From: a virus
Strand: one strand, 5' to 3'
Virus record (IMG/VR): IMGVR_UViG_3300047319_000394
Span: 1 to 45,751 of that record
Length of the DNA stretch: 45,751 nt
Below the pieces are notes generated by a model. The model was not told where the DNA came from. It saw nothing but the letters and a program-made list of their open reading frames with translations, and searched no databases. Position numbers and translations under genes: made by a program. Numbering within the stretch: position 1 is the first letter of the stretch; each line of letters begins with the position of its first letter. This document shows, piece by piece, positions 2,216 to 45,270 of this stretch.

Positions 2216-3015
<800 letters not shown>

Positions 3016-3016
<1 letters not shown>

Positions 3017-7610: not shown

Positions 7611-7664
7611 CCGGGCCTTCGACAACCTCTAACCTAACCGCAAGCGCAGCAGGAGCAGACCATC

Positions 7665-9287: not shown

Positions 9288-9299
9288 CTGTCTGAGCGA

Positions 9300-9375
9300 A
9301 CCGCGGCGGTGGCGATGGGTCGGGTTTCTCCTCCCTGACCGACCGATCATCCCCTGTCGCCGCTGCGGTCTTTTT
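9300..9375 (+). terminator. strong intrinsic terminator after capsid gene
   Basis: An imperfect long hairpin. Outer arms ACCGC/GCGGT and GCGG/CCGC, with a small bulge, lie at 9300-9315 and 9357-9369. An inner arm GGTCGG (about 9318-9323) pairs with CCGACC (about 9339-9346). The stem is followed at once by C and five Ts (9371-9375). It separates the capsid gene from the connector genes and would lower downstream transcription. Confidence 0.8.
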
Positions 9376-9386
9376 CGCAAACGACC

Positions 9387-10442
9387 ATGAATCCAGGCGA
9401 CCTTACGACTCTCGCTAACGCGAAGGAATGGCTCGGCTTATCCGGCGTCGCAATCGCCGGTATAAGCAATGCCAATCCTGCGGTAGTGACGCTCGCGTTC
9501 GCGCCAGCGACGCCGCTGTCGACGGGCCTTACGGTCGGTCTGTCTGCGGTCAACGGCACGACGGAAGTCAACGGCAACGAGTATGTGATCACGATGATCG
9601 ATACCAAGACGTTTTCGATCCCGGTCGATTCGACGGCGTTCGGCGTCTACGTCGACGGCGGGCTGGCAAGCCTGTCCGATACGCTGATGCAGCGCTTGAT
9701 CTCGTCGGTATCGACGTTCATTCAATCGGCGCTCAATCGCACGATTCGCAATCTGCCCTACGTCGAGTTTCGCAGCGGCCTCGGCGGCCCGACCATGATG
9801 CTGCTCAATTTCCCGGTGACGAGCGTGGCGAACGTTACCGTCGACGGCATCCCTGTACCATCGCGCCCGCCGCTCGGCGTCGCGGTCGCGCAGAACTTCA
9901 TCGGCTTCGGCGGCTACGCTAGCCGCGGGCCGTCCGGTTTCACCTTCGATCAGTATCGCGTCATGCTGAACGGCTACGAGTTCCGGCGCGGCTTCGCGAA
10001 CATCCAAGTCGATTACGCGGGCGGCTATCTGGTCCCGAGCGAAGTGCAGAAAGTCCCGTCGAGCGCGCCGTATACGCTCGTGACGCAGGCGCACTGGAAC
10101 GCGGGCGACCGCGGCGTTACCTACGCCGACGGCACGCCTTTGACGTCGGTTTCGTTCGGCTCCGCGCTGACGCAAGGACTGTACAGCGTCGATCCGAACG
10201 GGACTTACTACTTCTCGTCGAGCGATGGAGGGACAACCGTGCTGCTTTCCTACGGTTATGTTCCGTTCGACGTCGAGCAGGCGGCGGTAGACATGATCGG
10301 CGACTGGTTCAAGTATCGCGATCGCATCGGACAGACCTCGATGGGCATCGAGTCGCAGACCATAGCCTTCACGAATACCGCTATCACGGCGCGAGCGCAG
10401 GGCGTGCTCAATCAGTACAAGCGCGTAACGCCGATCTACTAG
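9387..10442 (+). CDS. head-tail connector (gp6-like) with FCCH-like insert
   Basis: 351 aa. The N-terminus LTTLANAKEWLGL and residues from about 95 (DTLMQRLISSVSTFIQSAL, YVEFRSGLGG, LLNFPVTSVANVTVDG) match the HK97 gp6-like adaptor family that docks under the portal. The end (VEQAAVDMIGDWFKYRDR) is typical too. Residues about 24-92 are an extra beta module ending TFSIPVDSTAFGVYVDGG, like the E1 FCCH-type domain. A related module lies in the tail gene at 16863. ATG 9387 begins just after the terminator T-run and lacks a good Shine-Dalgarno site. Confidence 0.85.
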   Translation: MNPGDLTTLANAKEWLGLSGVAIAGISNANPAVVTLAFAPATPLSTGLTVGLSAVNGTTEVNGNEYVITMIDTKTFSIPVDSTAFGVYVDGGLASLSDTLMQRLISSVSTFIQSALNRTIRNLPYVEFRSGLGGPTMMLLNFPVTSVANVTVDGIPVPSRPPLGVAVAQNFIGFGGYASRGPSGFTFDQYRVMLNGYEFRRGFANIQVDYAGGYLVPSEVQKVPSSAPYTLVTQAHWNAGDRGVTYADGTPLTSVSFGSALTQGLYSVDPNGTYYFSSSDGGTTVLLSYGYVPFDVEQAAVDMIGDWFKYRDRIGQTSMGIESQTIAFTNTAITARAQGVLNQYKRVTPIY

Positions 10443-10451
10443 GAGAATAAG

Positions 10452-10628
10452 ATGCTATTCGAGTTCATTCTGTTCGCTATTCTCGGCTGGGCCGTGTTTA
10501 CGACGTGGCCACAGCCGATTCCGTCTAGCCGTTGGCTGCTGGCGGTTATCTTCGTCGTACTGATGATCCTCTGGTTGGTCGTTGGCGTGACCGGATTCAG
10601 CCTCGGGAATCTACACGTCCCGCGATGA
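10452..10628 (+). CDS. small two-helix membrane protein
   Basis: 58 aa starting MLFEFILFAILGWAVF, with AGGAGAATAAG directly upstream of ATG 10452. Two hydrophobic helices (about residues 4-18 and 28-47) are joined by a short Pro-rich turn. The TGA overlaps the next ATG. No family recognised. Membrane proteins are unexpected between connector genes; superinfection exclusion is possible but unsupported. Confidence 0.65.
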   Translation: MLFEFILFAILGWAVFTTWPQPIPSSRWLLAVIFVVLMILWLVVGVTGFSLGNLHVPR

Positions 10629-10837
10629 AAATCAACCGACCGAATAACTGGGAGCACCATCAGCGGTTCGCTGGCAAGGTGCCGCACCCAGGCGAGTGCG
10701 GAACGGCGTACGTCATCACGCCGCAGGATGATCCTGCCGAAGCCGCTGATCGCGTTCGCAAGTTGCGCGAAGCGGTTATGGAAGTTACCGGGATGCCTAC
10801 CGCGCCGATTCGGCCGCCGATGGGATTCGTTCGATGA
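10625..10837 (+). CDS. small hypothetical protein
   Basis: 70 aa beginning MKINRPNNWEHHQRF. The start codon overlaps the previous TGA and the stop overlaps the next ATG. Residues 35-58 form an acidic/basic helix (EAADRVRKLREAVMEV). No family recognised. Both overlaps and conserved operon spacing support a real gene. Confidence 0.6.
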   Translation: MKINRPNNWEHHQRFAGKVPHPGECGTAYVITPQDDPAEAADRVRKLREAVMEVTGMPTAPIRPPMGFVR

Positions 10838-11349
10838 TCTCCGGCTACATCATCGGCGATAAGGCGCTGGTCGCGCGAATCCGCGGCGCGGGTATGGTCG
10901 TGAAGGCTGAGATCGACGATACGGTGCGTAAACTCGGCTACGCGCTCGAGCGAAAGGTCGTCAATGATTACCTGCATGGCCCCCGGCCGCAAAGGCTGGG
11001 GTTTCGGCATGGCAAGCTGGCCGCGTCGATCACGCAGGGCAATGCAGATAGCCGCTCGCGCTTTGAATCGACAGAGACGACCGCGATCGCCTATGTCGGA
11101 ACGAACGTATCGTATGGCGCGATGTGGGAACACGGTTTTAGCCGCAAAGTCGGCGCGGGGGCGCGCGGCGGCCCTCGGACTGTGTCCGGCAAGGCGCTCG
11201 ACTCCTACATCCGCCGGCACCCGCCTGGTGTCCGGCAAGTGGCGGCGCGTCCGTTCCTGGCCCCGGCCCTGTTCGAGATGCGGGCGCAGATCCAGACCGA
11301 GCTCGGCGCGGCGCTCAAGCGCGGTATGGAAAAGGCGCTGCGCGCATGA
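10834..11349 (+). CDS. head-tail joining protein, HK97 gp10-like
   Basis: 171 aa. It has the pattern of the gp10/virion morphogenesis family. An N-terminal helix carries LVARIRGAG and KLGYALERKVVND, then a basic loop. A central IAYVGTNVSYGAMWEHGFSR follows, with the family hallmark Y-A-x-x-x-E-x-G. A C-terminal VAARPFLAPALFEMRAQI block is the usual ARPFLRPA motif. These proteins act at the neck, near the tail completion proteins. ATGA overlaps on both sides. Confidence 0.85.
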   Translation: MISGYIIGDKALVARIRGAGMVVKAEIDDTVRKLGYALERKVVNDYLHGPRPQRLGFRHGKLAASITQGNADSRSRFESTETTAIAYVGTNVSYGAMWEHGFSRKVGAGARGGPRTVSGKALDSYIRRHPPGVRQVAARPFLAPALFEMRAQIQTELGAALKRGMEKALRA

Positions 11350-11507
11350 ATCCGAATCTCTATCGGAAATTGGTCAGGCGCGGATTCGTGCCATACGTCG
11401 TGCGACCGCGCATTTTGGTCAATTCGCTCCGCCGGATATTTGGCTCGCCTGAATATCGCGCGCTGGGCGGATGGCTGCCGCCAAAGGCTCAACGTGGCAA
11501 CGCGTGA
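11346..11507 (+). CDS. small basic protein
   Basis: 53 aa, MNPNLYRKLVRRG at the start, rich in Arg, with a FVPYVVRPRILV strand. It starts on an ATGA overlap and ends 14 nt inside the next gene. No family recognised. The AAAGG site for the following GTG lies inside it, so it may serve partly for translational coupling. Confidence 0.5.
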   Translation: MNPNLYRKLVRRGFVPYVVRPRILVNSLRRIFGSPEYRALGGWLPPKAQRGNA

Positions 11508-11940
11508 GCCAATCTATCAAGCGCTGTTCGATCTCGTGACGAACGCTCCAGCCGTGAAGGCTCAATTCGTCACCTTCGGCCGGCTGCTGCCGCACGTCGA
11601 GAACGTTGCTGGCGTCCAGTGCCCGGCGCTTTTTACGTTCCAGCTGCCCGAGCGGCGCGTTTACAAGGGCAAGGGCATCCCGGCGATTCGGACGCTGTTT
11701 GTCGCGTTCGTCGCGTACTTTTCCAGCGACAACTCCGGCGGGCGACTCCCGGCGACGGCGATCAACGCGGCCGCGGACGCGATCGACGACGCGATCTCGA
11801 ATCCTGGCAACCCGCAAAACACGCAGACGCTCGGCGGCTTGGTCGAGCACGTCTATATCGAGCCGGACATCCGGCCGTACGAGGGCTTGCTTCAGGAAAA
11901 GTCCGTCCTCGTCTCGGTTATCTCGATGCTGATCCCATGA
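11494..11940 (+). CDS. tail terminator / tail completion protein
   Basis: 148 aa from GTG 11494, chosen because AAAGG lies seven bases upstream and the sequence TREPIYQALFDLV is the usual start of this family. Other family marks are a PALF strand, RTLFVAFVAYF, and the C-terminal TLGGLVEHVYIEPDI with a final VSVISMLIP. These proteins cap the growing tail tube and join it to the head. A longer frame upstream to 11440 would overlap the small gene before it and adds no conserved sequence. It sits just before the tail tube gene as expected. Confidence 0.78.
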   Translation: MATREPIYQALFDLVTNAPAVKAQFVTFGRLLPHVENVAGVQCPALFTFQLPERRVYKGKGIPAIRTLFVAFVAYFSSDNSGGRLPATAINAAADAIDDAISNPGNPQNTQTLGGLVEHVYIEPDIRPYEGLLQEKSVLVSVISMLIP

Positions 11941-12149
11941 GAGGCGACGGCGAAAATCATGGGCCGAAAATACCGATCCCCGGCGCGGCAGGCGCGACCA
12001 TCTACGAGGCGCTGCGGCGCATGGCGATGCGGCCGGAAGAATGCGGAATCACGATCAACAAAGAGCGCGTGGCCGGCGGCGGCTACGTTTACGTCATCGG
12101 AACTAACGAACCGCCGGCCAAGCCGGTAAGGAGCATCAATCATGGCTGA
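11937..12149 (+). CDS. small hypothetical protein before tail tube gene
   Basis: 70 aa, MRGDGENHGPKIPIPG at the start, with an ATGA overlap to the previous gene. It contains TIYEALRRMAMRPEEC and a beta segment GGGYVYVIG. The 3' end holds the AAGGAG site of the tail tube gene, which it overlaps by eight bases. No family recognised. Confidence 0.6.
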   Translation: MRGDGENHGPKIPIPGAAGATIYEALRRMAMRPEECGITINKERVAGGGYVYVIGTNEPPAKPVRSINHG

Positions 12150-12942
12150 CTTCTTTGGCACCGGCTCGCTGATCGCAACGCCGCTATTTGACGCAAGCGG
12201 CGCAGCAATCGCGATACCGTCGCCCGTTGTGATCGGCATCCTGCAAGATGTAACCGTCGACGATTCTGCCGACATGAAGGAACTGTACGGAGATAAGGGC
12301 TATCCGGTCGACATCGGCCGCGGCAAGCAGAAGCTGACGCTTAAGGCGAAGGCCGCGATGATCAACGCCGAATTGTTCAATTCGGTCTATTACGGCCAGG
12401 GGCTTGTCGCCGGCTCGGCGAACGCGATCATCGATACGGTCGGCTCGACGATTCCTACCGGCGCAGGCTCAACGGCGGTCAACGTCAATGCGGTTGCGAC
12501 GGGCGGCGCGAGCGCGATATTCGCGGCGGACTTAGGCGTCCAGTTTCCGGACGGCACGCCGTACACGCGCGTCGCGAGCTCGCCGACCGGCGGGCAGTAC
12601 GCACTCGTTACTGGCGTGAACAGTTCGGGCGCGACGTATCAGTTCTCGAACCTCGACGTTGGCAAGACGGTATTCATCAACTACCAGTACACGAACGCGG
12701 CGGGGACTGGATCGATCATGACCATCAAGAATATCCCGATGGGTCAGGTGCCGGTGTTCTCCGCGCAGTTGATGACACCGAAGCGCAACAATCAAACGAT
12801 GTGGCGTTACTTCTACGCCTGCACCGCCACGAAGCTGACGATGGACTTCAAAAACGACGACTTCGTCATTCCCGACCTTGAGATCGGCTGCTTCGCCGAT
12901 CCGACGACAGGGAATGTGCAGAAGTTCGCGTTCTCCGAATAG
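12142..12942 (+). CDS. major tail tube protein
   Basis: 266 aa. Starts MADFFGTGSLIATPLFD and has a two-part beta design. The first part carries VTVDDSADMKELYGD and GKQKLTLKAKAAMIN. The second has a D-x-G-V strand, SSPTGGQYALV and YQFSNLDVGKTVFINYQY, which I know from siphovirus tail tube proteins. The end is FVIPDLEIGCFADP. It polymerises around the tape measure. A good AAGGAG site sits eight bases upstream. Position just before the chaperone pair fits. Confidence 0.85.
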   Translation: MADFFGTGSLIATPLFDASGAAIAIPSPVVIGILQDVTVDDSADMKELYGDKGYPVDIGRGKQKLTLKAKAAMINAELFNSVYYGQGLVAGSANAIIDTVGSTIPTGAGSTAVNVNAVATGGASAIFAADLGVQFPDGTPYTRVASSPTGGQYALVTGVNSSGATYQFSNLDVGKTVFINYQYTNAAGTGSIMTIKNIPMGQVPVFSAQLMTPKRNNQTMWRYFYACTATKLTMDFKNDDFVIPDLEIGCFADPTTGNVQKFAFSE

Positions 12943-12947
12943 CCGCC

Positions 12948-13298
12948 GTGGACTCGGCCAACGGAGCGGTAAAATATGCGCCGATCCCGGGGAAGATTCC
13001 CGGGACGGCGGTCAATCTCGGCGGGCATGACTTCATCGTCGCGCCGCTGAATCTCGATCTGTTCGTCCAGCACGAAAAGGAAATAACCGAGTTCGGCGCG
13101 ATCAAGGACCGCGGCGGCCTCGAAGCGGCGCTGCCGATCTTCCTAGTCTGCATCCAGCGCAATTATCCGGACATGACGCTCGAAGCGTTGCGCCAGATAA
13201 TAGACTTCGCCAATGCCGGCGCGCTGATGCAGGCGATCATCGAAACGAACGCGCTGAAACTCAAGGCACCGGGGGAGTCGGTGCCGGCGGCCCCGTAG
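12948..13298 (+). CDS. tail assembly chaperone (G-like)
   Basis: 116 aa from GTG 12948. Helical: LNLDLFVQHEKEITEFGAI, then ALPIFLVCIQRNYPDMTLEALRQIIDF, similar to gpG-type tail chaperones that bind the tape measure. It ends LKAPGESVPAAP at a TAG (13296-13298) that lies in the loop of a strong hairpin. The weak ribosome-binding site suggests coupling to the tail tube gene six bases upstream. Confidence 0.8.
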   Translation: MDSANGAVKYAPIPGKIPGTAVNLGGHDFIVAPLNLDLFVQHEKEITEFGAIKDRGGLEAALPIFLVCIQRNYPDMTLEALRQIIDFANAGALMQAIIETNALKLKAPGESVPAAP

Positions 13299-18032: not shown

Positions 18033-19757
<1,725 letters not shown>

Positions 19758-21500: not shown

Positions 21501-22835
21501 ATGAAAACGGCGACATTCTACGCGCCAGGTCTTACCGTCGAGGTGCTCGATACCGGCGCGACGGGGCCGACCGGCAGTACCGGATCGACTGCGCCAACGG
21601 GGCCGACCGGATCAACCGCGCCCACTGGCGCGACAGCGCCGCCGCCAAGCGGCCCGGCGTGGCTCGCCGGCAAGCCGCTGAACGCATGGATTCCCGTAGG
21701 CGCGCAGTCGGCCATGAATCAGATGGACTTCGCGCCGCTGGTCGCTGCTGGACTGACGACGAACGCGGGCGGCGACCTCGGCTTCGGCTCGCCCGCGTCG
21801 AAGACGGCGCTGCTCTACATGGGCGGCGCGCTGCGGAAAGCAGACAGCGACCTCCTGCTGTTCGGCGGCGGCGGCGCGCGCGCTTGGGCCGGGAATGAGG
21901 TCCGCGGCCTGCGCTTGTCCGACGACGCGCCGCGCTGGGGCGTTCGCCGCAATCCGTCGCCGGCCGCGCAGGTCTGGTTCAATCAATACGGGAACCAGGT
22001 CTCAGGCACGCACGCGGCAGATCCGTCCAACTCCTACATGCGCGATGGCGTCACGCCGAATGCGCGGCACGCCTATTGGGTGACGCAGTTCGTCGATGCG
22101 CTCGACTCGTTCTTTACCGTCGGCGTGACGAACACCTGGGAACGCGACTCCTCGCCGGACGGCGGCAAGACCGTTGACCGGCTCGACTGGCCGACGAAGC
22201 TATGGGACGCGCCGGGAACGTTCCCTCCGTATCCAGTGCAGATCAGCGGCGACTCGCACTTCATCGTCAAACTGCCGAATGAGCATATCGGCGTCGCGAT
22301 CAACGGGAGTAGGTTCTACGAGTTCGATCCGTTTGCGAAGACGTGGACGTTGCGCTATACCGACACGTTTACCGACTATGAGCGGCGCGGCGCGGTCGTC
22401 GATCCGACGCGAAATATCCTGCTCATGATCGGGCAGAAGAACGCGGTCCAGAACGTGCCTCTGACGCAAAGTCTTGCGCTCGACTCAACCGGCAAGATGG
22501 CCGCTCCGGTGCAGGCGATGTTCAGCGGACCCTTCGCCGGAAGCATCAATCAGACGAATCTCTACTGGGCGGCTGGCATGGTCTACGATCCGGCGCTCGA
22601 TCTGTTCCTCTACTATCAAGACGACGGTTTCCTGTACTCGATCAAGTGGCTGTCGAATACTAGCTACTTCGTCGATCGCGTCGTTCTGACCGGCATCGCG
22701 CCGACGCCAGCCTCGATGTCGTATTCCGGCAATCCCGGCATCTGGAACAAGATGCAGTACGTGCCGAACCTTAAAGGCGTGGTCCTCGTTGCTGGCGGCG
22801 ATTCGACGCCGACTTACTTCGTGAAAACGTCATGA
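21501..22835 (+). CDS. receptor-binding protein, short collagen stalk plus predicted beta-propeller
   Basis: 444 aa. The N-terminus MKTATFYAPGLTVEVLDTG repeats the adaptor of the preceding gene. A stalk of about ten Gly-X-Y triplets follows (residues 19-46). The remaining 390 residues have recurrent beta strands with Tyr/Trp-Asp patterns: FYEFDPFAKTWTLRY, GAVVDPTRNILLMIG, GMVYDPALDLFLYYQD. These look like blades of a kelch or galactose-oxidase type propeller. Probably a sugar-binding tip protein. One base separates it from the previous stop. Fold assignment is by eye. Confidence 0.65.
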   Translation: MKTATFYAPGLTVEVLDTGATGPTGSTGSTAPTGPTGSTAPTGATAPPPSGPAWLAGKPLNAWIPVGAQSAMNQMDFAPLVAAGLTTNAGGDLGFGSPASKTALLYMGGALRKADSDLLLFGGGGARAWAGNEVRGLRLSDDAPRWGVRRNPSPAAQVWFNQYGNQVSGTHAADPSNSYMRDGVTPNARHAYWVTQFVDALDSFFTVGVTNTWERDSSPDGGKTVDRLDWPTKLWDAPGTFPPYPVQISGDSHFIVKLPNEHIGVAINGSRFYEFDPFAKTWTLRYTDTFTDYERRGAVVDPTRNILLMIGQKNAVQNVPLTQSLALDSTGKMAAPVQAMFSGPFAGSINQTNLYWAAGMVYDPALDLFLYYQDDGFLYSIKWLSNTSYFVDRVVLTGIAPTPASMSYSGNPGIWNKMQYVPNLKGVVLVAGGDSTPTYFVKTS

Positions 22836-28282: not shown

Positions 28283-29674
28283 ATGGCCGACTCTACGACA
28301 AATCTACCGCTGATCCTTACATCGCAGGCGCAGAAGGAAGTCAGCGCGAACGGATTGTTCGACGCCGAATCCCCGGCCGGCGTGTTCGGTCGGAATTTTC
28401 AGACATGCGCCGGTCTGACGTGGGGATACCTCGGCGGCAAGTGGAGCATCGGAGGCACCCCGACGTCGATCGCTAACGGAACGCTCTCGCTGACGGCCAG
28501 CGTCACCTGTTACATTCGCCTGAACAATACGACCGGCGTCGTCGATTTCGTTACGAGCGCGCCGAGCGGCTGGCCTGGTCCAGTAACAGGCTACACGGCG
28601 CTGTACGAAGTCATCACCGGAACCGCTACCGTTACCAGTTGGATCGACTGGCGGCTCGGCGCTGGGTCCAGCGGGGCCGGCACCGCTGGCGCTACGGGAG
28701 GAACTGGCGCAACCGGGCACACGGGGAATACGGGGAATACGGGCGGCACAGGGAACACGGGCGCCGGCAATACCGGAGGCACAGGGGGGACTGGCGCGAC
28801 CGGTAGCACCGGAGGGACGGGAGCAACCGGCCCGGGCGGATCAGGAAGTGTCGGGCCGACCGGAAATACCGGGGCGACAGGAAATACCGGAAACACGGGA
28901 AATACTGGCGCTACCGGTTCCGGCGCTGGAAATTCTACTTTGCAGGGCGTCGCGTATACGAGCAGCGGAGTCTTTACCGGACCGACCGGCGTCTCTAGCG
29001 TGTGGATCGCGGAGATGGTCGGAGGCGGCGGTGCTGGTGGTGGCTCGACCGGCGTCGCAACGCGCGGCGGTGGCGGCGGTGGCGCTGGTGAGTTACTGCA
29101 GAATCTTGCGATCGCCGTCGTTGATGGCACTGGCTATACAATCACGATCGGCCAAGGCGGCGCGGGGTCGACCGGCGTCGCGGGCGGCAACGGCGGGACT
29201 TCGTCGTTCACTGGGGCCGCATTCTCCATCAATGCGCTCGGCGGTTTTGGCGGCGGCACTGGCGGTGTCGGAGCTACCGGCGGCGGCCCGAAGGGCGGCG
29301 CTGGGGGCGGCATCGGCGCGCCTGGGGTCGCCGGTTCTGTCGGCCTAGCCGAAGCGCCGACCTATTTCGGCGGCGGCGGTGCTGGCGGTGCAGGCAACGC
29401 TACCGGTGCAAATGGCGGCGCTGGCGCTGGCGCTGGCGGCTTCGTTGGCGGCACTGGCGGCACGAACAGCACGAGCCAAGCCGGCGGTGGCGGCGGCGCG
29501 TCCACGATTCACGGAATCGGTGGCAGCGGCGGAACCGGCGGCGCGACCGGCTTCGCGGCAGGGTCTTCCGTCTATGGGGCAGCGGGCGGCGGCGGGGGCG
29601 GCGCAACGGCAGGCACGCAGACCTGCGGCGGCAGCGGCGCGCCAGGCTACATATTGATCCAGTGGATCGCCTAG
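28283..29674 (+). CDS. tail fibre: DUF2793-like head, collagen shaft, glycine-rich adhesin tip
   Basis: 463 aa in three parts. Residues 1-130 start [20 protein letters not shown], a phrase shared with many phage tail proteins (DUF2793-like). Residues 135-212 are Gly-X-Y triplets. Residues 215-463 are extremely Gly-rich (GGGGAGGG blocks separated by short variable loops, ending [13 protein letters not shown]). The tip resembles glycine-rich phage adhesins whose polyglycine-II helices present variable loops to the receptor. It follows the hub, so it is probably the distal receptor-binding fibre. Weak Shine-Dalgarno (GAGATAA). Confidence 0.78.
28762..28803 (+). repeat. 42-bp exact direct repeat, copy 2
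   Basis: Identical to 19208-19249 in the first collagen fibre gene. It lies in the Gly-X-Y shaft of this fibre. Flanking bases differ at both ends. Confidence 0.85.
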
Positions 29675-32805: not shown

Positions 32806-33200
32806 ACGCCTATGCACAAGCCGCCGCTACACTTCCGCCAGTATCGCAGACCTCCGGCATCGACTGGCCGCTATTGCTCGGCATCCTAGCCGTAGTTGGC
32901 GTCGTCGCTCTGATCATCTGGGTGAAGCATCGCAATCCGGCTGCAACCGCCGCGGCCGCAACCGTCGTCAGCGCGGACGCCAGCCATCTCGGGACCGTAA
33001 TCGTGGACGAGTTCGCGAAGCTGCGGGCGGCGTTCGAATCGAAGTTTGCGCCCGCGGCGGTTACGATTACTGGGGTCGTCGGCGAACCTACGCCGCCCGC
33101 GCCTGCCGGAAAGTCCGGTCAGGCCGGCGTGTTTACGGCGACGGTGACGGGCGATCCGAAGGTCGATCTTCCGGCGCTAACGGCGGCCTATCTCGGCTGA
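32802..33200 (+). CDS. single-pass membrane protein, end of lysis operon
   Basis: 132 aa from ATG 32802, with AAAGGAACGCC upstream. One strong membrane helix (residues 23-42, LLLGILAVVGVVALIIWV). Then a region with FAKLRAAFESKF and a Pro/Gly-rich tail. Possibly a second holin or antiholin. The last 68 bases overlap the 3' end of the opposite-strand glycosyltransferase gene. Confidence 0.65.
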   Translation: MNAYAQAAATLPPVSQTSGIDWPLLLGILAVVGVVALIIWVKHRNPAATAAAATVVSADASHLGTVIVDEFAKLRAAFESKFAPAAVTITGVVGEPTPPAPAGKSGQAGVFTATVTGDPKVDLPALTAAYLG

Positions 33201-35262
33201 CGCTCGCCCACATCGTCCGCACGGCCTCGACGACTTCGTCGACGGTGATGTCTTGCATACATTTGTGCGGCGTGTCGTCGTCATAGTTTGGCCGTGGCGG
33301 ATTGATGCATGGTCCTCTTGGCATTCTACTTATTTGTGGCGATTCTCGAAAGCACGGCTGGCACGGCAGCCCCTTGCTGATGTTCGTATTACCCGGATAG
33401 CCCGCCGCGCTCGCCTGCGTCGACCCCCATAGGATGACGCCGGGCACGCGCCGACCTCCGTTCTCGTCGGTCCAGTAATAATTCGTCAGATGATTACAGA
33501 ACGAGTCGATTCCCATGTGCATCGTTGCGTTGGCGAACATGGCGATCGATTGCGCGAGCGGCCAGCCTTGCCCCGCGTCGATCTGGATCATTTGTATCTG
33601 CGGCTCAAGAGCTTGCCTAACTTCTAGCCATCTGCTATCCGGCCACTGCTTGTACCGGCTCCAGCCGGCGTGACTTTGCCAGGTTGCGTAATGCTTCGGC
33701 ATCGTCGGAACGTCCGTCCGCTTCGGCCGCCGCAGCGTCAGCGATGGCAGACCGTATTTAAACGGGTCGAGCGGCGGCGCTGGCATACAAGGGAATAATC
33801 CCATTTCCTGAGCAAAATACATAAGCAGGTGCCACCGCATCGGCTTCTCGGGATACCCTTCGGCCAGCGGATACCCGACGAGGTCGATCACGCGATCGTA
33901 ATTCTTCCGCCATTGCGGCAGGCCGGCGCAGTCCATGACGGCGTTCGCCCCGGCCGCCAAGATGATCCCGCCGAGCGCGTCCATCGACGCAAGCCCGGCG
34001 CTGCAAAAGTAGTGTACGTCGGTATCGGGATTCGCTTCCTTGAACGCCGGCAGGAGATTGAGCGTCATCAGAATGTCGCCGATCGCGCCTGGCCGGTGCA
34101 GCGCGACCATACGGCGCAGACCTTTGACGATGGCCGGCGCTTCCGGCGCTTCGAGCATCGCCGACAACCGCGCCTCGCGTCTTGCCCAATCCTCGTCATG
34201 CTGGCCGATCAGTCTTGTTGCCAGTTGCGACCATACGAGCGCCTGCGCCTTGTTGCCCAGATGCTCATGGCACCAGGAAATCAGTCGGGCAGGCTGATCG
34301 CGGTACATCTGCGGCTCGCGCCATAGGACGGTCTGCGGGATCGGTTTGTCGAGCGCTTGGCTGGCCTGAGCGATGCACGTCGCCCATTCTTTATGGTCGT
34401 ACGCGATGAACGCGAGTTCCATGCGGAACTCCTGCCAGTCGGTCGCGGTGGACATCGTTTCTGCGGACTGCGCTGCTAGGTCAACGTCGCCCTGCCTGCC
34501 GGTGCGGCGCAGCGATCTAATGCGATAGAGATATGCGAATAGCTGCTCGTCGCGGAAAGCGTCCCCGTAGTCGATTCGCTTGTCGTACCATTTGATCGCT
34601 TCATCAAACCGCCCGCCGTCCTTGTGCGTATTCGCAATGTAGAACGCCGTCCTCGCGTCCGGCTCGGCTGCATACTGCGCGGTCAGGATGCGCAGATTCC
34701 GCTCGTTCGACGTTTCGCCGCTCGACTCGTGCGCTGTGCCATCGTGAACGATGCAAAGGTCATTCATGACAGCTTGCGGTCTGCCGGAAATATCGGGCCA
34801 CTCGTGGACGTAGCCGTGAAATCGTATCTTCTGGCTGGCGTCCCATGCGCGATAGTGGACTTGACGAACACCGCCGCCGAGTTCTATCCAGCATCCCCAG
34901 ACTCCGTTCGGCATATATGCAATGCGGCGCGCGGCAAGCGGCGTCGTCACTTCGTCGTCGCTGTCTATCCAGAAAAGGTGACTGCATCCGGTCGCTTCGG
35001 CAAGTTCTATTGCGTGATTCCTGGCCTTGGAAAAATTAGCGATTCGCCAGTTGCCATCAGGTCCGAGCTCGCTCGCATCCGTATAGACCTCGTACGTCAT
35101 CGGCGTTTTAATCGACGCTTTTGCGATGGCTTGCGTATTGTCGGATGATCCGGTGTCGACGATGACGACATGATCGGCGAACGATTCGACGGAGCGCAGC
35201 GCGCGCGGAATATCACGCTCCTCATTCCTCGTAATTAACCAGACGCAGATTGACGGTTTCAT
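33133..35262 (-). CDS. bimodular glycosyltransferase GT2-TPR-GT9
   Basis: 709 aa. Residues 1-175 are a family 2 glycosyltransferase: [29 protein letters not shown], and a D-S-D metal site at 100-102. Residues 185-370 look like TPR helices, as in SunS-type enzymes where TPRs follow GT2. Residues 383-690 match GT9 heptosyltransferases: [17 protein letters not shown] with Asp396, a central [20 protein letters not shown] and a Cys-rich end (PCQPCFRE). It could move two sugars onto a protein, lipopolysaccharide or DNA base. Its partner is a methyltransferase three genes upstream. Start ATG at 35262 overlaps the HNH stop. Confidence 0.85.
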
Positions 35263-35702
35263 GTTACCGGCAATCCGGCGGCGCGCAGACGTGATCGGCG
35301 AAGTTCTTTAACTAGACGCTTGCACGTCCTGCATCCTCGCGCCCCGCCGGTCGTACCTCGCGGCACGAAAGTATTGTCCGGCGTGAACTCGTGACCGCGT
35401 CGGCAGTGCGTTAACTGCTGACCGTTCATTCGACGTTTTGCAGAAGCATCGCGAGAATTATCTTTTGGCGTTCCAAGGAACAAATGATCCGGATTAACGC
35501 AGCCTGGATTGTCGCAATGATGACAAACGAACAGGCCGGCAGGAATGGGGCCGCGCATGAACATATAGGAGACGCGGGGCGCTGTCTGTTTGCGTCCATC
35601 AAAAAAGAATCCGCCGTATCCCTTGCGATCGGTTGACGCCAGCCAGAACCAGCACTTCGGACCGATTAGAACGTGACTCATAAATCGGCGGTAGACGTTC
35701 AT
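35259..35702 (-). CDS. HNH endonuclease
   Basis: 147 aa. The core has [19 protein letters not shown] with His61/His62, Asn70 and His73, then TPKDNSRDA, the standard phage/homing HNH pattern. A second zinc site follows (HCRRGHEF, then CRTC near residue 130). It sits between the glycosyltransferase and methyltransferase genes with 4-base overlaps on both sides, so it is fully part of this operon. Homing or DNA-processing role cannot be told apart. Confidence 0.9.
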
Positions 35703-36391
35703 TGGATTGGCTTCAAAACAGAATCCCTCTGGCCCGGTTCAAGGGCATAAGTAAACTCGATGGTAAACGCATTGGTCCGCGCGCAGCATTCAGCCAGCGC
35801 GCTCAGGCTCCAGACGAAGGGATGAATCGCGTACCGCTCCGGCAGGAAGTCGCGCTCAATCCCCGGCACGTTGCTGTCCGGCATACGGATGAACAAGCGC
35901 GAGTTCTCGTCGCGCATCAGTCCGCGCATCTTCGTCATCGTCTTGATCGGATCATAGGCGTGCTCCCAGACATGAACAAACGTGACCAGATCGAAGGGGC
36001 CTTCGATGGGATCGCGCTCGAAGTCGCCCCGGAGCATCGATACGACATTCTGACCGCTCGTTTCCACTTCAGCATCAATGGCCCACGCCTCGCAGCCGTG
36101 ATTCGTTGCCAGGAAACCCGCGAGTACCGGATGTTTTGAGCCGACGTCGAGCGTCCGACCGGCTCTCTTTCTAAGGGGATTATCAAATGCCCACTGCGCG
36201 AGTATCCTGTTCGCATTGCGGTCCCCTTCCGGCATCTCGGCCAGGTCGTATTCGTCGGGGTGCTGGTACATTTTGTCGGGCATAGGCGATTGCCACCAGA
36301 GGCCGCATCCCGAGCAGGTGTAGTACGGCGTCGGCGCGCGCGGTACGCCAGAGCCGATCGTTTCGCACAGCGGGCAAAATGGATGGCTCAT
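35699..36391 (-). CDS. SAM-dependent methyltransferase with zinc ribbon (sugar-type)
   Basis: 230 aa. The N-terminal zinc ribbon uses CPLC (6-9) and CSGC (26-29). The Rossmann core has TLDVGS (80-85) and [15 protein letters not shown], followed by LFIRMPDSN. This zinc-ribbon plus Methyltransf_23 layout is common in O-antigen and glycan clusters, and the glycosyltransferase two genes on supports a glycan substrate. The glycine-rich motif I is weak (DVGS not DxGxG). GGGG lies just upstream of its ATG. Confidence 0.8.
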
Positions 36392-37949: not shown

Positions 37950-38882
37950 TTAGTCGCCGATGGATAGCTTCTGCGCGCGGCCGAGGTCGGCAAGTTCGGC
38001 GCGTTGTTTCTCCGGCAAGCCGGAATGAATCAGCGACAGTGCGGTATCGACGGCATCCTTCGACTTCGCGGCGTTGATTCTATCCGCGATCTCGGCATAG
38101 GTTGGCCCGTCGCCTAACAAATCGGCCGCAGTAGCCAACGGCGCAGCCTTGCCGGCGTTCGGTTCCTTCGGCGCGCTATCCGGCGCGTCGGCCGGCTGCG
38201 GTTGACTGGCGACCGTATGCGCGGCTTCCTTGATGCCTTCCGGCGTTAGCGGCTCGCGCGCGGGCGTCACGTCGATATAGTCGTGCAATTCCTCGGCGGT
38301 CGGCAGGCCCATCGCTAGCTCGGGCGCGTGCGTGCGAACCATCCAGGCGGCGGCGCGATAGGTCAGCATCAATTCGGGGATCGTTTTCCATTTCGAGCCG
38401 GCGCGCCCCAGCCAGCCTTCGGCCTGCGCCGTCTGCATCGTGACAAGCGGCCCGACGATTTCCTCGCCGTTAGACAGTTCCTTTGCAAAGGCGCGGCAAC
38501 CCCAGTCATCCTTCCCGCGCTCGCTCTGCCAGCGATACCGGATCGCCGAGAATCGGCCGCACTGATTGAAGCAGGCGATCAGGAACTGCGCCGACCAAGC
38601 TGGCCGGCCGTGGACGACGTAAAGGTTCTGCATCACCATCAGCGGGTCCGCTTTCATGCGGAGCGCCATATTGAGCGCGATAACGCACGAGGCGACGCCG
38701 GCACCGTCCGCGCCGCGGTATATGTCAGGCACCAGCGGCGACGCCGCCAGCAGCCGCGCACCGCGCTGCAGCAGTTCAAACGATTGCAGGTCGCCGAAGC
38801 CTGGCTGGATCGGCGCTAGTCGCGTTTCCCGCGGCGCTGGCTGGTTTTTAAGGTCGGCGATATTCGCCGTTGCGTTCGTCAT
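37950..38882 (-). CDS. recT: RecT family single-strand annealing recombinase
   Basis: 310 aa. The core (residues 28-205) has FELLQRGARLLAASPLVPD, ASCVIALNMALRMKADPLMVMQ, GRPAWSAQFLIACFN, and KWKTIPELMLTYRAAAWMVR, all classic RecT phrases. The C-terminal third is Ala/Pro-rich and helical, perhaps for partner binding. It anneals single strands made by the exonuclease encoded upstream. GGAG precedes ATG 38882. Confidence 0.93.
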   Translation of the reverse strand: MTNATANIADLKNQPAPRETRLAPIQPGFGDLQSFELLQRGARLLAASPLVPDIYRGADGAGVASCVIALNMALRMKADPLMVMQNLYVVHGRPAWSAQFLIACFNQCGRFSAIRYRWQSERGKDDWGCRAFAKELSNGEEIVGPLVTMQTAQAEGWLGRAGSKWKTIPELMLTYRAAAWMVRTHAPELAMGLPTAEELHDYIDVTPAREPLTPEGIKEAAHTVASQPQPADAPDSAPKEPNAGKAAPLATAADLLGDGPTYAEIADRINAAKSKDAVDTALSLIHSGLPEKQRAELADLGRAQKLSIGD

Positions 38883-38892
38883 TTGGATCTCC

Positions 38893-39702
38893 CTAGTCGT
38901 GGAATTTACAGACGCCGTAGCCGCCGCAGTAGACCGGCGAACAGAGCATCGAGCGCGGATTCGGCGGGAAGATTCCGCTCTTTAGCATCCGTCCTGCCAT
39001 CTCGATCAGCCCCGGCGAATCGGCGTCGCCGACGAGCGGCGTCCGGCTGTCGCCAATTTCGCCGCAGCCGACGCGGGCGTTCGCCGCGACCTGCAGGCCG
39101 ATGATCTCGTCCGGCGCATCCAGCACTCGCTCGAGCGCGGCCTCGGCCATGATGCGATAGATGCCCGTTTGCAGATGGTGCCCCTTGGTAACGGCGCGGC
39201 CGTCTGCGCCGACTGCGCGCCCGCCGCTCTTGATGTCGCTGATACCCTCGCGGCCGTCCCCGGTGACGCGCACGCGATCGGTCGTGCCGTTGATCCGCAC
39301 GACGCCGGATTCGGTCGTAATGTCGAGCGCGTTGCATGCGATCTCGACGGCCCGGTACTGGTGCGACGGCGCGATCTGCTCGGCATAATTGCGCGTCAGC
39401 GATAGGCCTATGCTCTCGGCCTTGACCATCTTGAAGTCGTCGTCCCAGACGACCTCCTGCGCCGGCTTCTCAAGCGTTTCGACTAACGCGCCGAGCGCCT
39501 CGGACAGATTGCCGGCGTCGCCGTTGACGCGCGGCGTATCGTATACCGCGGTCGCCTTGTGCAGCGCCGTGCCCAGCTGCGACTTGCCGCGCGCTGGCGT
39601 CCGCATCCCGCGCACGTTTTGGTAGTACCAGCGCAAGCTGCAATCGAACAGCGTCGGCCAGGATGACGCGCGGATCGTTCCGAGGATTGCCGGCTCGCTC
39701 AC
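38893..39702 (-). CDS. PD-(D/E)XK exonuclease, RecB/Cas4-like, with Cys cluster
   Basis: 269 aa from GTG 39702. Nuclease residues: His48 in LGTALHKA, Asp142 in NGTTDRV, Asp156 and Lys158 in ISDIKSG, and Gln178 in HHLQTGIY. Cys21 near the start and Cys254, Cys259, Cys265 near the end resemble the one-plus-three cysteine arrangement of Fe-S RecB-family nucleases, though the first gap is four residues, not two. It probably resects DNA ends for RecT, the next gene. GTGA overlap upstream. Confidence 0.88.
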   Translation of the reverse strand: MSEPAILGTIRASSWPTLFDCSLRWYYQNVRGMRTPARGKSQLGTALHKATAVYDTPRVNGDAGNLSEALGALVETLEKPAQEVVWDDDFKMVKAESIGLSLTRNYAEQIAPSHQYRAVEIACNALDITTESGVVRINGTTDRVRVTGDGREGISDIKSGGRAVGADGRAVTKGHHLQTGIYRIMAEAALERVLDAPDEIIGLQVAANARVGCGEIGDSRTPLVGDADSPGLIEMAGRMLKSGIFPPNPRSMLCSPVYCGGYGVCKFHD

Positions 39703-41848: not shown

Positions 41849-42047
41849 CGCTACCCGCTTCCGCGCCGCCAACGGTCGCTACGCCAATCGCGAGCAGTTC
41901 GCTTGGGTCGAGGCCCCGACCGGCGCGTTCCGGCCTAGCCTTACCGTGGAGCCGAGCCGCCCGGATATTCCGACGTTGACCGACGCTGTAACCGAGCGGA
42001 TGCCGTTCTGGTGGCGCTGGTGGCTGTTCCTGAGCGGGCAGACGTGA
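41841..42047 (+). CDS. small hypothetical protein
   Basis: 68 aa from GTG 41841, with GGAG upstream, overlapping the cro-like gene by eight bases. Starts PNATRFRAANGRYANREQF; the C-terminus is Trp-rich (FWWRWWLFL), perhaps membrane-associated. Unknown function. Confidence 0.55.
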   Translation: MPNATRFRAANGRYANREQFAWVEAPTGAFRPSLTVEPSRPDIPTLTDAVTERMPFWWRWWLFLSGQT

Positions 42048-42854
42048 GTGGACAACAGCTTACCGTTGGCTCCCTGTTCGCCGGAATTGGCGGATTCGAC
42101 CTCGGGCTTGAGCGAGCCGGGATGCGCGTCATCTGGCAGTCCGAGATCGATCCCTACGCCTGCGCCGTCCTGCGGAAGCACTGGCCTACTGTTCCCAACC
42201 TTGGAGACATACGAGGAATCACGGCCAAGACTGTGGCAGACGCCATCGGTGGAGGATGCAGGACGGCAGGGCAGCGAGAAGGCTTGGAAGGAGTGGACGG
42301 ATGGCGGCAGGACGACGCAATGCCGACTGCGAAATCAAGTTATGTCGATGTCCTCTGTGGCGGCTTCCCCTGCCAGGACATCAGCAACGCGGGGAAACGG
42401 ACAGGGATCGACGGCGAGCGGTCAGGATTATGGAGCGAGTACGCCAGAGTTATTGGCGAGCTACGACCCCGCTACGTCATCGTGGAGAACGTCGCAGCTT
42501 TGCTTGGACGGGGAATTGAGCGAGTTCTCGGAGACCTGGCCGCGCTCGGGTTTGACGCGGAATGGCATTGCATACCGGCTTCCGCAGTTGGTGCGCCTCA
42601 CCGACGCGACCGAGTCTGGATTATTGCCTACGCCAAACGAGTCGGGACCACAAGGACGGAGAAGCTCCGCGCTATCGGGACGAGATATTGCAACAGGACA
42701 CGCTGGGCAGGGTGCTTGGTGGATCACTGAACCCAACGTGGGTCGAGTGGCTCATGGGATACCCAGCCGAGTGGACCGCCTTAGATGCCTCGGCAATGCC
42801 ATCGTCCCGCAGATCGCGGAAATCATCGGGCGGGCGATAGTGAGCGCACAGTGA
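42044..42854 (+). pseudogene. C5-cytosine DNA methyltransferase, split by one extra base
   Basis: From GTG 42044 the first frame carries motif I (TVGSLFAGIGGFDLG, 8-20), motif IV with catalytic Cys110 (GGFPCQDIS), motif VI ENV (148-150) and motif VIII (RRDRVWIIAYA), then turns to nonsense and stops at 42730. The +1 frame over 42700-42854 carries the missing end (VGRVAHGIPSRVDRLRCLGNA), including motif X-like IVPQIAEIIGRAI. Removing one A from AAA at 42635-42637 joins the two into a 269-aa enzyme. A sequencing error, a true mutation or +1 frameshifting are possible. About 40 extra residues lie between DIRG and motif IV. Likely protects phage DNA from host restriction. Confidence 0.85.
42048..42840 (+). 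CDS. overprinted ORF in methyltransferase gene (SETWPRSG/WVEWLMGYP family)
   Basis: GTG 42048, just after the preceding TGA, opens a +1 frame with LWQTPSVEDAGRQGSEKAW, SYDPATSSWRTSQL, FSETWPRSGLTRNG and LLPTPN. The sense then passes to a third frame: TSRDHKDGEAPRYRDE and SLNPTWVEWLMGYPAEWTAL, ending at 42840. I recognise these phrases from a family of phage proteins of unknown function. Removing the same A at 42635-42637 that repairs the methyltransferase also makes this a single 263-aa ORF. It may be truly dual-coding, or the family may be a frame echo of the conserved methyltransferase. Confidence 0.5.
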
Positions 42855-43675: not shown

Positions 43676-43969
43676 ATGGCCGCGGCAACGAATATCCGAG
43701 ATACTTCCCTCGAAGCCTACCGGCGCGCGAGCATCACGCCGCGCCAGGCCGAGATTGTCCAATTCATCCAACGCGAGCGGGCTGGTGACTTTACCCGCGG
43801 CGAGATCGCTCACTACGCCGCCATCCCGATCAACTGCGTCTGCCCGCGCGTGCTCGAGCTCATCGAGGCCGGAGTGCTCATGGAAATGCCGCGCCGGAAG
43901 TGCCGGTTCTCCGGGCGCGCGGCATATCCGGTCGCGCTCGTGCCGCGGCAATCGCCGCTGCCGCTATGA
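43676..43969 (+). CDS. winged-helix DNA-binding protein
   Basis: 97 aa. GGGAGG precedes ATG 43676. ASITPRQAEIVQFIQRERAGDFTRGEIAHYAAIP followed by VCPRVLELIEAGVL is a winged-helix pattern (helix-turn-helix plus wing). Probably a regulator of early genes or a replication accessory. ATGA overlap with the methyltransferase. Confidence 0.72.
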   Translation: MAAATNIRDTSLEAYRRASITPRQAEIVQFIQRERAGDFTRGEIAHYAAIPINCVCPRVLELIEAGVLMEMPRRKCRFSGRAAYPVALVPRQSPLPL

Positions 43970-45270
43970 TAAACGAGTGTTACGTCGGCGACGTTCGGGA
44001 CGGCCTGCGGGCGATGATCGCGGCTGGCGTTCGGGCGCAGACTTGCGTTACTTCGCCGCCGTATTGGGGGTTAAGAGATTACGGGACAGCGAAATGGGAT
44101 GGCGGGGATGGCGAATGTTCGCATCTACAACCGGCTACTGGATCGACCCAGAACAAAGGCAACAATGGACGCAATGGGACGCCGTTCGGGGAATTGTGCG
44201 GACTCTGCGGCGCGACCCGCGTCGACCGCCAGATCGGGCTCGAGTCGACAATTGGCGAGTACGTCGAAACGATGGTCGATGTGTTCCGGCTGGTCCGCGA
44301 TGTGCTGGCCGACGATGGGACGCTTTGGCTCAATCTGGGTGACTCGTACAGCGCATCACCAGCAGGAAATCGCGTCCCAAGCGGTATGTCACAGATAGGC
44401 GGCAAGCGCGGGGAAACCCCGCTATCGGCCTATAACACGCAGCCCAAAGAGTTCGGCCCGCTTAAGCCCAAAGACATCTGCGGCATCCCCTGGCGCGTCG
44501 CCTTCGCGCTACAGGCCGACGGCTGGTGGCTGCGGCAGGACATCATTTGGGCGAAGCCTAACCCGATGCCGGAGAGCGTTACCGACCGCTGCACGAAGTC
44601 GCACGAGTACCTGTTCCTGCTGGCGAAGCGGGAACGGTATTACTACGATGCGGCGGCGATTGCGGAAGAAGGAAGCGGGCGCGTACCGGGCAATGTAATA
44701 CCACAAAAGATAGACAGCTCTCGAAACGATGGCGGCATTGCCGGAATATATGCGGCGCAGCAGCGTGAGCAACTTACGCGCAATCGACGATCTGTCTGGA
44801 CGATAGCTACGGAATCCTACGCCGACGCCCACTTCGCCACGTTCCCGACAGCGCTGGTCGAGCCGTGCATCATGGCCGGAACGAGCGAGCGAGGCCACTG
44901 TCCGGCGTGCGGCAAGGGATGGGAGCGCGTTATCGAACGCGTGGGCGGCCCGCCGCGGGGAGATCATCGCGCGAATCATGACGTCGATAATTGCAAGACC
45001 GCGCACGCTACCGGAACGGTCGCGGGCAGCGCGTTGAGTTCCATTTATGCGAAGTATGGCTATGCGGAGAACAGGACTACCGGCTGGCAACCGACGTGCT
45101 CCTGCGGTCTTGATCCGGTTCCGGCCGTCGTCCTCGATCCATTCATGGGAAGCGGAACCGTCGCCCAGGTTGCTCAGTCCCTTGGGCGGCGATGGGCTGG
45201 ATGTGAACTGAATCCCGAGTATGTTGCGATGCAGCGCAAGCGGGCAGCGCAGCTAGGTCTGGCGTTCTAA
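43966..45270 (+). CDS. DNA methyltransferase (N4-cytosine/N6-adenine, beta class)
   Basis: 434 aa from ATG 43966. Motif IV TSPPYWGLRDYG is at residues 29-40 and motif I DPFMGSGTVAQVA near 391-403, followed by GCELNPEYV, so the order IV...I is the beta class. A Cys-rich insert (CGLCGATRVDRQ) and a second zinc-binding site (CPACGKGW, then CSCG) sit between, as in many phage DNA methylases. TSPPYW occurs in both N4C and N6A enzymes, so the base is not decided. Probably guards against host restriction. Confidence 0.92.
   Translation: MINECYVGDVRDGLRAMIAAGVRAQTCVTSPPYWGLRDYGTAKWDGGDGECSHLQPATGSTQNKGNNGRNGTPFGELCGLCGATRVDRQIGLESTIGEYVETMVDVFRLVRDVLADDGTLWLNLGDSYSASPAGNRVPSGMSQIGGKRGETPLSAYNTQPKEFGPLKPKDICGIPWRVAFALQADGWWLRQDIIWAKPNPMPESVTDRCTKSHEYLFLLAKRERYYYDAAAIAEEGSGRVPGNVIPQKIDSSRNDGGIAGIYAAQQREQLTRNRRSVWTIATESYADAHFATFPTALVEPCIMAGTSERGHCPACGKGWERVIERVGGPPRGDHRANHDVDNCKTAHATGTVAGSALSSIYAKYGYAENRTTGWQPTCSCGLDPVPAVVLDPFMGSGTVAQVAQSLGRRWAGCELNPEYVAMQRKRAAQLGLAF

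Follow-up and report, generated by a model that had tools for sequence, protein, structure and literature searches.

A phage-encoded GT2-TPR-GT9 glycosyltransferase and methyltransferase cassette that may decorate the phage's own Gly-X-Thr collagen-like fibres

In this study, which was carried out entirely in silico, we analysed the IMG/VR virus record IMGVR_UViG_3300047319_000394 over positions 1 to 45,751 (45.7 kb; the whole stretch is called the window hereafter), which belongs to a tailed phage according to its terminase, portal and tail genes. The subject is a leftward cassette that encodes a 709-amino-acid (aa) protein, in which a GT2 glycosyltransferase (GT), a tetratricopeptide repeat (TPR) solenoid and a GT9-type domain are joined, and a 230-aa zinc-ribbon methyltransferase (MT) that depends on S-adenosylmethionine (SAM). 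The cassette probably glycosylates a protein, and, with somewhat less assurance, we favour its being a multi-step enzyme that decorates the Gly-X-Thr collagen-like fibre proteins of the phage itself. It is the steady company of the cassette with Thr-rich collagen-like fibre genes that suggests that the phage glycosylates its own fibres.

The GT2-TPR-GT9 protein is encoded at 33133-35262(-), with the strand given in brackets here and below, and was characterised using its open reading frame (ORF), Pfam, NCBIfam and PHROG (phrog_13126) matches, an AlphaFold2 model and fold comparisons. Its first part (residues ~1-180; 34723-35262(-)) is a GT2 catalytic domain of the GT-A type that is matched by PF00535 (E 1.2e-9) and carries a DxDD motif, WIDSDDE, at residues 98-104. 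A PDB search with a profile that was built from seven relatives matched this region to ThuS (1.3e-21), GmaR (1.3e-18) and SunS (4.7e-16), of which GmaR adds N-acetylglucosamine (GlcNAc) to flagellin and likewise has a TPR domain (PMC9638930). The SunS family of NCBIfam, TIGR04195, was also matched (E 3.6e-13), with a whole-protein score of 49.2 bits that lies below the curated cut-off of 350 bits. The TPR solenoid that follows (residues ~185-375; 34138-34710(-)) was recognised by its fold match to SunS/ThuS and to the TPR domain of OGT, as well as by TPR profile matches in the relatives; its repeats are weak in the sequence of the window protein and clearer in the relatives and in the fold. 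Over the GT2 and TPR regions together (residues 1-376), the predicted structure matched SunS with a Z score of 24.2 and ThuS with 24.0. The model of the entire protein had a predicted local distance difference test score (pLDDT) of 76.5 and a predicted template modelling score (pTM) of 0.50, which leaves the arrangement of its domains uncertain. The GT2 domain is of the SunS/ThuS catalytic type, and the domain tests favour a protein as the target. The sequence-only reading of this DNA, which had proposed the fusion, the zinc-ribbon MT and a likeness to SunS, was borne out in all three: the boundaries of both ORFs are exact, Pfam supports the GT2 domain and the relatives and the fold support TPR and GT9, and the homology to SunS extends across GT2 and TPR by profile, NCBIfam and fold.

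The C-terminal part (residues ~383-690; 33193-34116(-)) is predicted from structural matches to be a GT9-type domain with the GT-B fold and the GD(I/V)L motif, whose Asp396 is invariant in the alignment of the relatives. A Pfam scan of the window protein gave no match to the GT9 family, TIGR02193 was weakly matched, and one relative (L017) matched PF01075 (GT9) with E 2.8e-4, which narrowly misses the curated cut-off. In the model, residues 382-695 resembled WaaF (1psw, Z 17.4), a GT9 protein of Veillonella parvula (3tov, 17.1), TibC (4rap, 16.0) and WaaC (2h1h, 15.8). Four invariant cysteines in this part, C634, C637, C652 and C668 (C-x2-C-x14-C-x15-C; 33259-33363(-)), form a candidate metal finger in a region that is poorly modelled (pLDDT ~45). 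The MT gene (35699-36391(-)) is matched by PF13489 (Methyltransf_23, E 1.7e-10), and the CxxC...CxxC zinc ribbon of its product (C6, C9, C26 and C29; 36305-36376(-)) is invariant in eight relatives. The profile matches of the MT are sugar 3-C-methyltransferases, and in a model of a fused relative (pLDDT 70) the MT part agreed best with KijD1 (Z 19.2), MtmC (18.1) and TcaB9 (17.9), so that the predicted fold is closest to the nucleotide-sugar C3-methyltransferases.

The five Gly-X-Thr proteins that the sequence-only reading had counted in the window are present, and four of them are clear. The main one, with 431 aa and 94 Thr (18462-19757(+)), matches PF01391 (E 4.2e-21) and the tail fiber and collagen-like minor tail families of PHROG. 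Further candidate acceptors are a Gly-X-Thr and glycine-rich tail protein of 463 aa (28283-29674(+)) and two small Gly-X-Thr proteins of 126 aa (2216-2596(+)) and 135 aa (2609-3016(+)), and a 444-aa protein (21501-22835(+)), which has only a short interrupted tract, is a weak candidate. Most Y positions of the repeats hold Thr; in the largest protein it fills 61 of 72. The DNA pattern for these repeats (GxT) matched the window 63 times and its reversed form not once, which places the repeats far beyond chance.

The association of the cassette with such proteins was examined in three ways, and the co-occurrence that the sequence-only reading had proposed to look for was found in each. Among contigs of at least 20 kb, the GxT pattern was present in 7 of the 10 that carry the cassette, compared with a single one of 23 IMG/VR contigs picked at random. 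Five of the phages (G000, G001, G002, G003 and G005) are related; the G006/G008 and G011 groups have little in common with the window except the cassette. Since each of these three backgrounds, which share essentially only the cassette, includes a GxT contig, the co-occurrence is not merely due to common descent, and three unrelated backgrounds are still a small number. In the reverse direction, contigs were picked solely for their GxT repeats and compared with length-matched random controls in two batches of 25; a relative detected by the GT profile was found in 13 of the 50 (7/25 and 6/25) and in none of the 50 controls (pooled Fisher test, 5e-5). Many of these 13 GTs are mutually homologous and hence do not represent 13 independent events. 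A marker for N6/N4 DNA methylases was not enriched in the GxT contigs (3/25 vs 7/25 random), and for GT2 in general (PF00535) the enrichment was not significant (7/25 vs 3/25, p 0.14), which ties the association to the SunS/GmaR-type class and not to all GT2 proteins. Within the 13 contigs, the GT and collagen genes tended to be close together, and in six the gap between them was 13, 42, 331, 348, 585 or 735 bp. In addition, G008 encodes a 1450-aa protein that consists largely of Gly-X-Thr collagen repeats (L035, 12419-16771) at ~1.5 kb from its fused MT-GT gene.

The third, GT-anchored survey used a nine-sequence alignment of a sister GT2-TPR family and the best 80 loci of more than 570 relatives. 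Collagen repeats occurred within the fetched stretch at 40 of the 80 loci, compared with 2 of 151 random control loci, and, when only stretches of at least 9 kb were counted, at 35 of 52 compared with 2 of 75. In all 40, the repeats and the GT share a strand, and in 38 the repeats lie upstream. Because GxT contigs were the source of the sister family and its closest relatives make up the 80 loci, these figures measure that family and not all GT2-TPR genes. The Actinomycetia phage DSL-LC01 (L441, OQ999401.1) has, in one same-strand run at 6532-13074, two collagen genes, a hypothetical gene, a tryptophan halogenase gene and a glycosyltransferase gene of the GT2-TPR type. The annotated halogenase, encoded between the collagen pair and the GT2-TPR gene, may be a further enzyme that acts on the fibre. 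Differently built MT-GT2-TPR proteins were found in G048 (529 aa; L340, 8286-9875) and in G109 (791 aa; L354, 12597-14972), where a further DXD sugar-transferase domain is present; both genes are 1.5-1.9 kb from Gly-X-Thr collagen genes.

Eleven further virus records and one contig of a bacterial metagenome-assembled genome (MAG) contain close relatives of the cassette. Among GenBank phages there were only two partial GT2 matches and no full-length relative of the GT2-TPR-GT9 protein, and the MT had no match at all. In G001, G005, G006/G007/G008 and G009/G010/G011, the MT and the GT2-TPR-GT9 protein form a single chain of 915-944 aa, which is cut by the contig end in G007. This fusion in several phage contigs indicates that the cassette is a functional unit. 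In the window and in G002, G003 and G004, the two are separate, with the MT just upstream of the GT. In G003 (L009, 925-4371; IMGVR_UViG_3300043702_000020), an FkbM methyltransferase domain is fused before the zinc-ribbon MT, and the GT frame is interrupted near 2755, either by an assembly error or in reality. The MAG contig, from a Burkholderiales genome (JADLEZ010000398.1; L018, 6-1643), encodes at its end a TPR-GT9 protein that is ~45% identical to the phage one and adjoins genes of chromosomal type (resembling spoT and gmk on visual inspection), being either a bacterial or a prophage copy. A GT2 relative (31%) in Vibrio sp. qd031 (L020, 5861-10945) adjoins HlyD and a C39-peptidase ABC exporter, and this locus may be an unrecognised glycocin-type cluster.

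The junction between the MT and the GT differs among the contigs that have them separate. In the window it holds an HNH endonuclease (HNH_3) gene (35259-35702(-); PF13392, E 1.2e-10; phrog_826, E 2.9e-40), which had been overlooked when the cassette was first described as part of one leftward operon. It is joined to each neighbour by a 4-base stop/start overlap, and the MT, HNH and GT genes therefore look translationally coupled. No HNH gene was present at the junction in the relatives examined: G002 has two small ORFs, G004 a 155-aa ORF and G003 a short overlap. At the position of the window's HNH gene, locus L003 (8588-9507) has two small ORFs of 126 and 180 aa, whose family is unassigned, and this site may be a hotspot for insertions. 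The arrangement resembles that of a gene split by a homing endonuclease, i.e., the gene is uninterrupted in relatives and an HNH gene stands between its halves in the window, and it is possible that the HNH element split a once-fused enzyme gene. We did not adopt this as fact because the two nearest relatives, G002 and G003, are already unfused without an HNH gene; the trees cluster them with the window and are compatible with either order of fusion and separation. A precedent is the nrdA gene of Aeromonas phage Aeh1, which is split by the HNH homing endonuclease gene mobE (PMC2988022). As in Aeh1, the HNH gene of the window lies between two parts that form one protein in relatives; unlike in Aeh1, the break falls at a domain boundary and a role of the HNH gene in the split is only possible.

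Alongside what was computed, namely the domain identities, the fusion, the recurrence of the whole cassette across unrelated phages and its genomic link to Gly-X-Thr proteins, we infer an acceptor, a linkage, the sugars, the methyl position and an order of steps. The TPR solenoid would bind a long repetitive acceptor. The SunS/GmaR-type GT2 domain would then place a first sugar on the protein, most likely O-linked at the repeated Thr, since Thr occurs dozens of times in the repeats and Cys hardly at all. The GT9-type domain might add a second sugar, possibly a heptose-like one, and the zinc-ribbon MT might methylate a sugar, either as the donor or as the transferred residue.

Several observations weigh against this proposal. 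The cassette of the window sits on the strand opposite to the collagen genes and kilobases away from them, in an early-type recombination operon with a PD-(D/E)XK exonuclease (38893-39702(-); PF12705, E 1.2e-17) and a RecT-like annealing protein (37950-38882(-); phrog_561, E 3.1e-66), both of which lie upstream in the same leftward run. Tight adjacency of the GT to collagen genes is mainly found in G008 and in the sister families, whose GTs are 22-31% identical to that of the window; the contigs of the sister families are interrelated, so that their counts are not independent, and environment and host were unmatched. Jumbo phages such as PaBG carry a GT2-TPR gene with no annotated collagen nearby, and in the Roseobacter phage CRP-6 collagen repeats occur although no GT is annotated. 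Among the relatives of the window's terminase, three that are devoid of the cassette are also devoid of GxT repeats (one was read over 50 of its 62 kb) and CRP-6 has the repeats with no GT annotated, which is too few to decide. The GT9 fold suits the heptosyltransferases of lipopolysaccharide (LPS) as well as it suits TibC, and, because the Z scores of WaaF, WaaC and TibC are close together, it cannot separate LPS from protein acceptors. Lastly, the SAM loop of the MT reads DxG[SAC][KA]xP rather than the usual glycine-rich GxGxG, and its activity is not assured. The virion glycosylation that the sequence-only reading had thought plausible is thus upheld in part, through the SunS homology and the co-occurrence, with the distance of the cassette from the collagen genes in the window counting against it.

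The main rival, which had also been named from the sequence and which we regard as unlikely, is modification of the host envelope, in which the GT2 and the heptosyltransferase-like GT9 act on LPS or some other surface glycan by extending or capping it, the MT methylates it and superinfection is blocked. A GT2 with a GT9 heptosyltransferase is a classic pairing of the inner core of LPS, the GT9 fold ties with WaaF and WaaC, and the early-type operon would fit a role in exclusion. Actinomycetia, however, are a host group without LPS, and a sister enzyme is present in a phage of theirs. The strong association with GxT collagen genes also argues against an envelope target, as does the GT2-TPR part, which is nearest in sequence and fold to the GTs of peptides and flagellin and not to lipid-linked ones, no LgtF or WaaE structure having been among the matches for comparison. 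Published work has interpreted GTs of phages that lie close to tail-fibre genes as modifiers of the O-chain (PMC7029224), which speaks for the envelope. An improbable alternative is that another protein, of the capsid, the tail tube or the host, is glycosylated and that the co-occurrence with collagen reflects only the phage lifestyle. It would account for the cassette not being adjacent to the collagen genes in the window, and the capsid and tail-tube subunits of mycobacteriophages carry glycans (Freeman et al. 2023, as cited in PMC12619734); the same-strand neighbourhood with collagen genes in the sister families and an enrichment that is specific to this GT class, and not that of a generic accessory gene, are against it. 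Hypermodification of DNA, in which the GTs would glycosylate a modified base, is very improbable: the operon is shared with RecT and the exonuclease and the window has genes for C5- and N6/N4-type DNA methylases, but proteins or glycans are the substrates of the domain relatives, and this alternative, also raised in the sequence-only reading, is weakened by the lack of any gene of the thymidylate synthase/hydroxymethylase family (PF00303) in the ten cassette contigs, in a search whose control was positive elsewhere. A search for PF12851 (TET/JBP) gave no match anywhere, controls included, and was uninformative. Of the methylase genes, the one at 42011-42730 is a part of a C5-cytosine DNA methylase that looks short for a complete enzyme, and the one at 43900-45270 encodes an N6/N4 DNA methylase.

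If the phage does decorate its own collagen-like fibres, a common and unexplained class of phage GTs, so far usually taken to target LPS or DNA, would gain a defined substrate, and the collagen fibres of phages would gain a route of decoration and perhaps of stability. Sugars on these fibres, which probably lie exposed and face the host, could influence adsorption, recognition and resistance to proteases. The fused enzyme might, in addition, be a compact tool for producing glycosylated recombinant collagen. In a broader form, which we put forward only tentatively, many tailed phages would glycosylate their own Gly-X-Thr collagen fibres using a TPR-guided SunS/GmaR-type transferase (the phrog_13126 class), and the window lineage would have elaborated this into a modular enzyme with an MT, a first GT, an acceptor-binding TPR and a second GT, a system of bacterial viruses that differs from the lysyl-hydroxylase route used by animals and mimivirus. 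The literature searched contained no account of collagen being glycosylated by a phage, which does not prove that none exists, and no description of the modular MT-GT2-TPR-GT9 architecture.

The proposed system can be compared with several known ones. The peptide S-glycosyltransferases SunS and ThuS have a homologous GT2 domain and a matching fold through the TPR/helical region (Z 24). Unlike them, the window protein has an additional GT9 domain and an associated MT and lies far below the TIGR04195 cut-off; their acceptors are Cys residues of bacteriocin-like peptides, whereas the likely acceptors in the window are rich in Thr with almost no Cys, and no glycocin precursor gene was noted. GmaR, the O-GlcNAc transferase of Listeria flagellin, likewise has a homologous GT2 followed by TPR and acts on a protein; it is without the GT9 and MT domains, and no antirepressor function is indicated for the window protein. 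TibC, a protein heptosyltransferase of the bacterial autotransporter heptosyltransferase group whose iron finger is formed by Cys 339, 342, 358 and 370 (PMC4358343), shares the GT-B fold, and the spacing of its finger cysteines resembles that in the candidate finger of the window protein. Neither the N-terminal beta-barrel nor the beta-hairpin thumb of TibC was identified in the window protein, whose GT9 domain is preceded by TPR, and the match begins at TibC residue 96. The MT resembles KijD1, MtmC and TcaB9 in its predicted fold type and in an N-terminal zinc-binding segment, and differs from them in its length (~230 aa compared with ~410 aa) and in that the glycines of the SAM loop are not conserved. 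In the mycobacteriophages, the glycosylated virion proteins are capsid and tail-tube subunits, unlike the collagen fibres that are proposed here as acceptors. A parallel in terms of substrate is the L230 protein of Mimivirus, a collagen hydroxylase-glucosyltransferase that acts at hydroxylysine on the virus's own collagen-like proteins (PMC4691112). As with L230, a viral enzyme is proposed to glycosylate the collagen-like proteins of its own virus; the enzyme families as described are different, and L230 acts on hydroxylysine and comes from a giant virus of amoebae. Virus-coded collagen glycosylation and the glycosylation of phage virions are therefore already known, and the system of the window would be a variant of them in which the modular enzyme is the new part.

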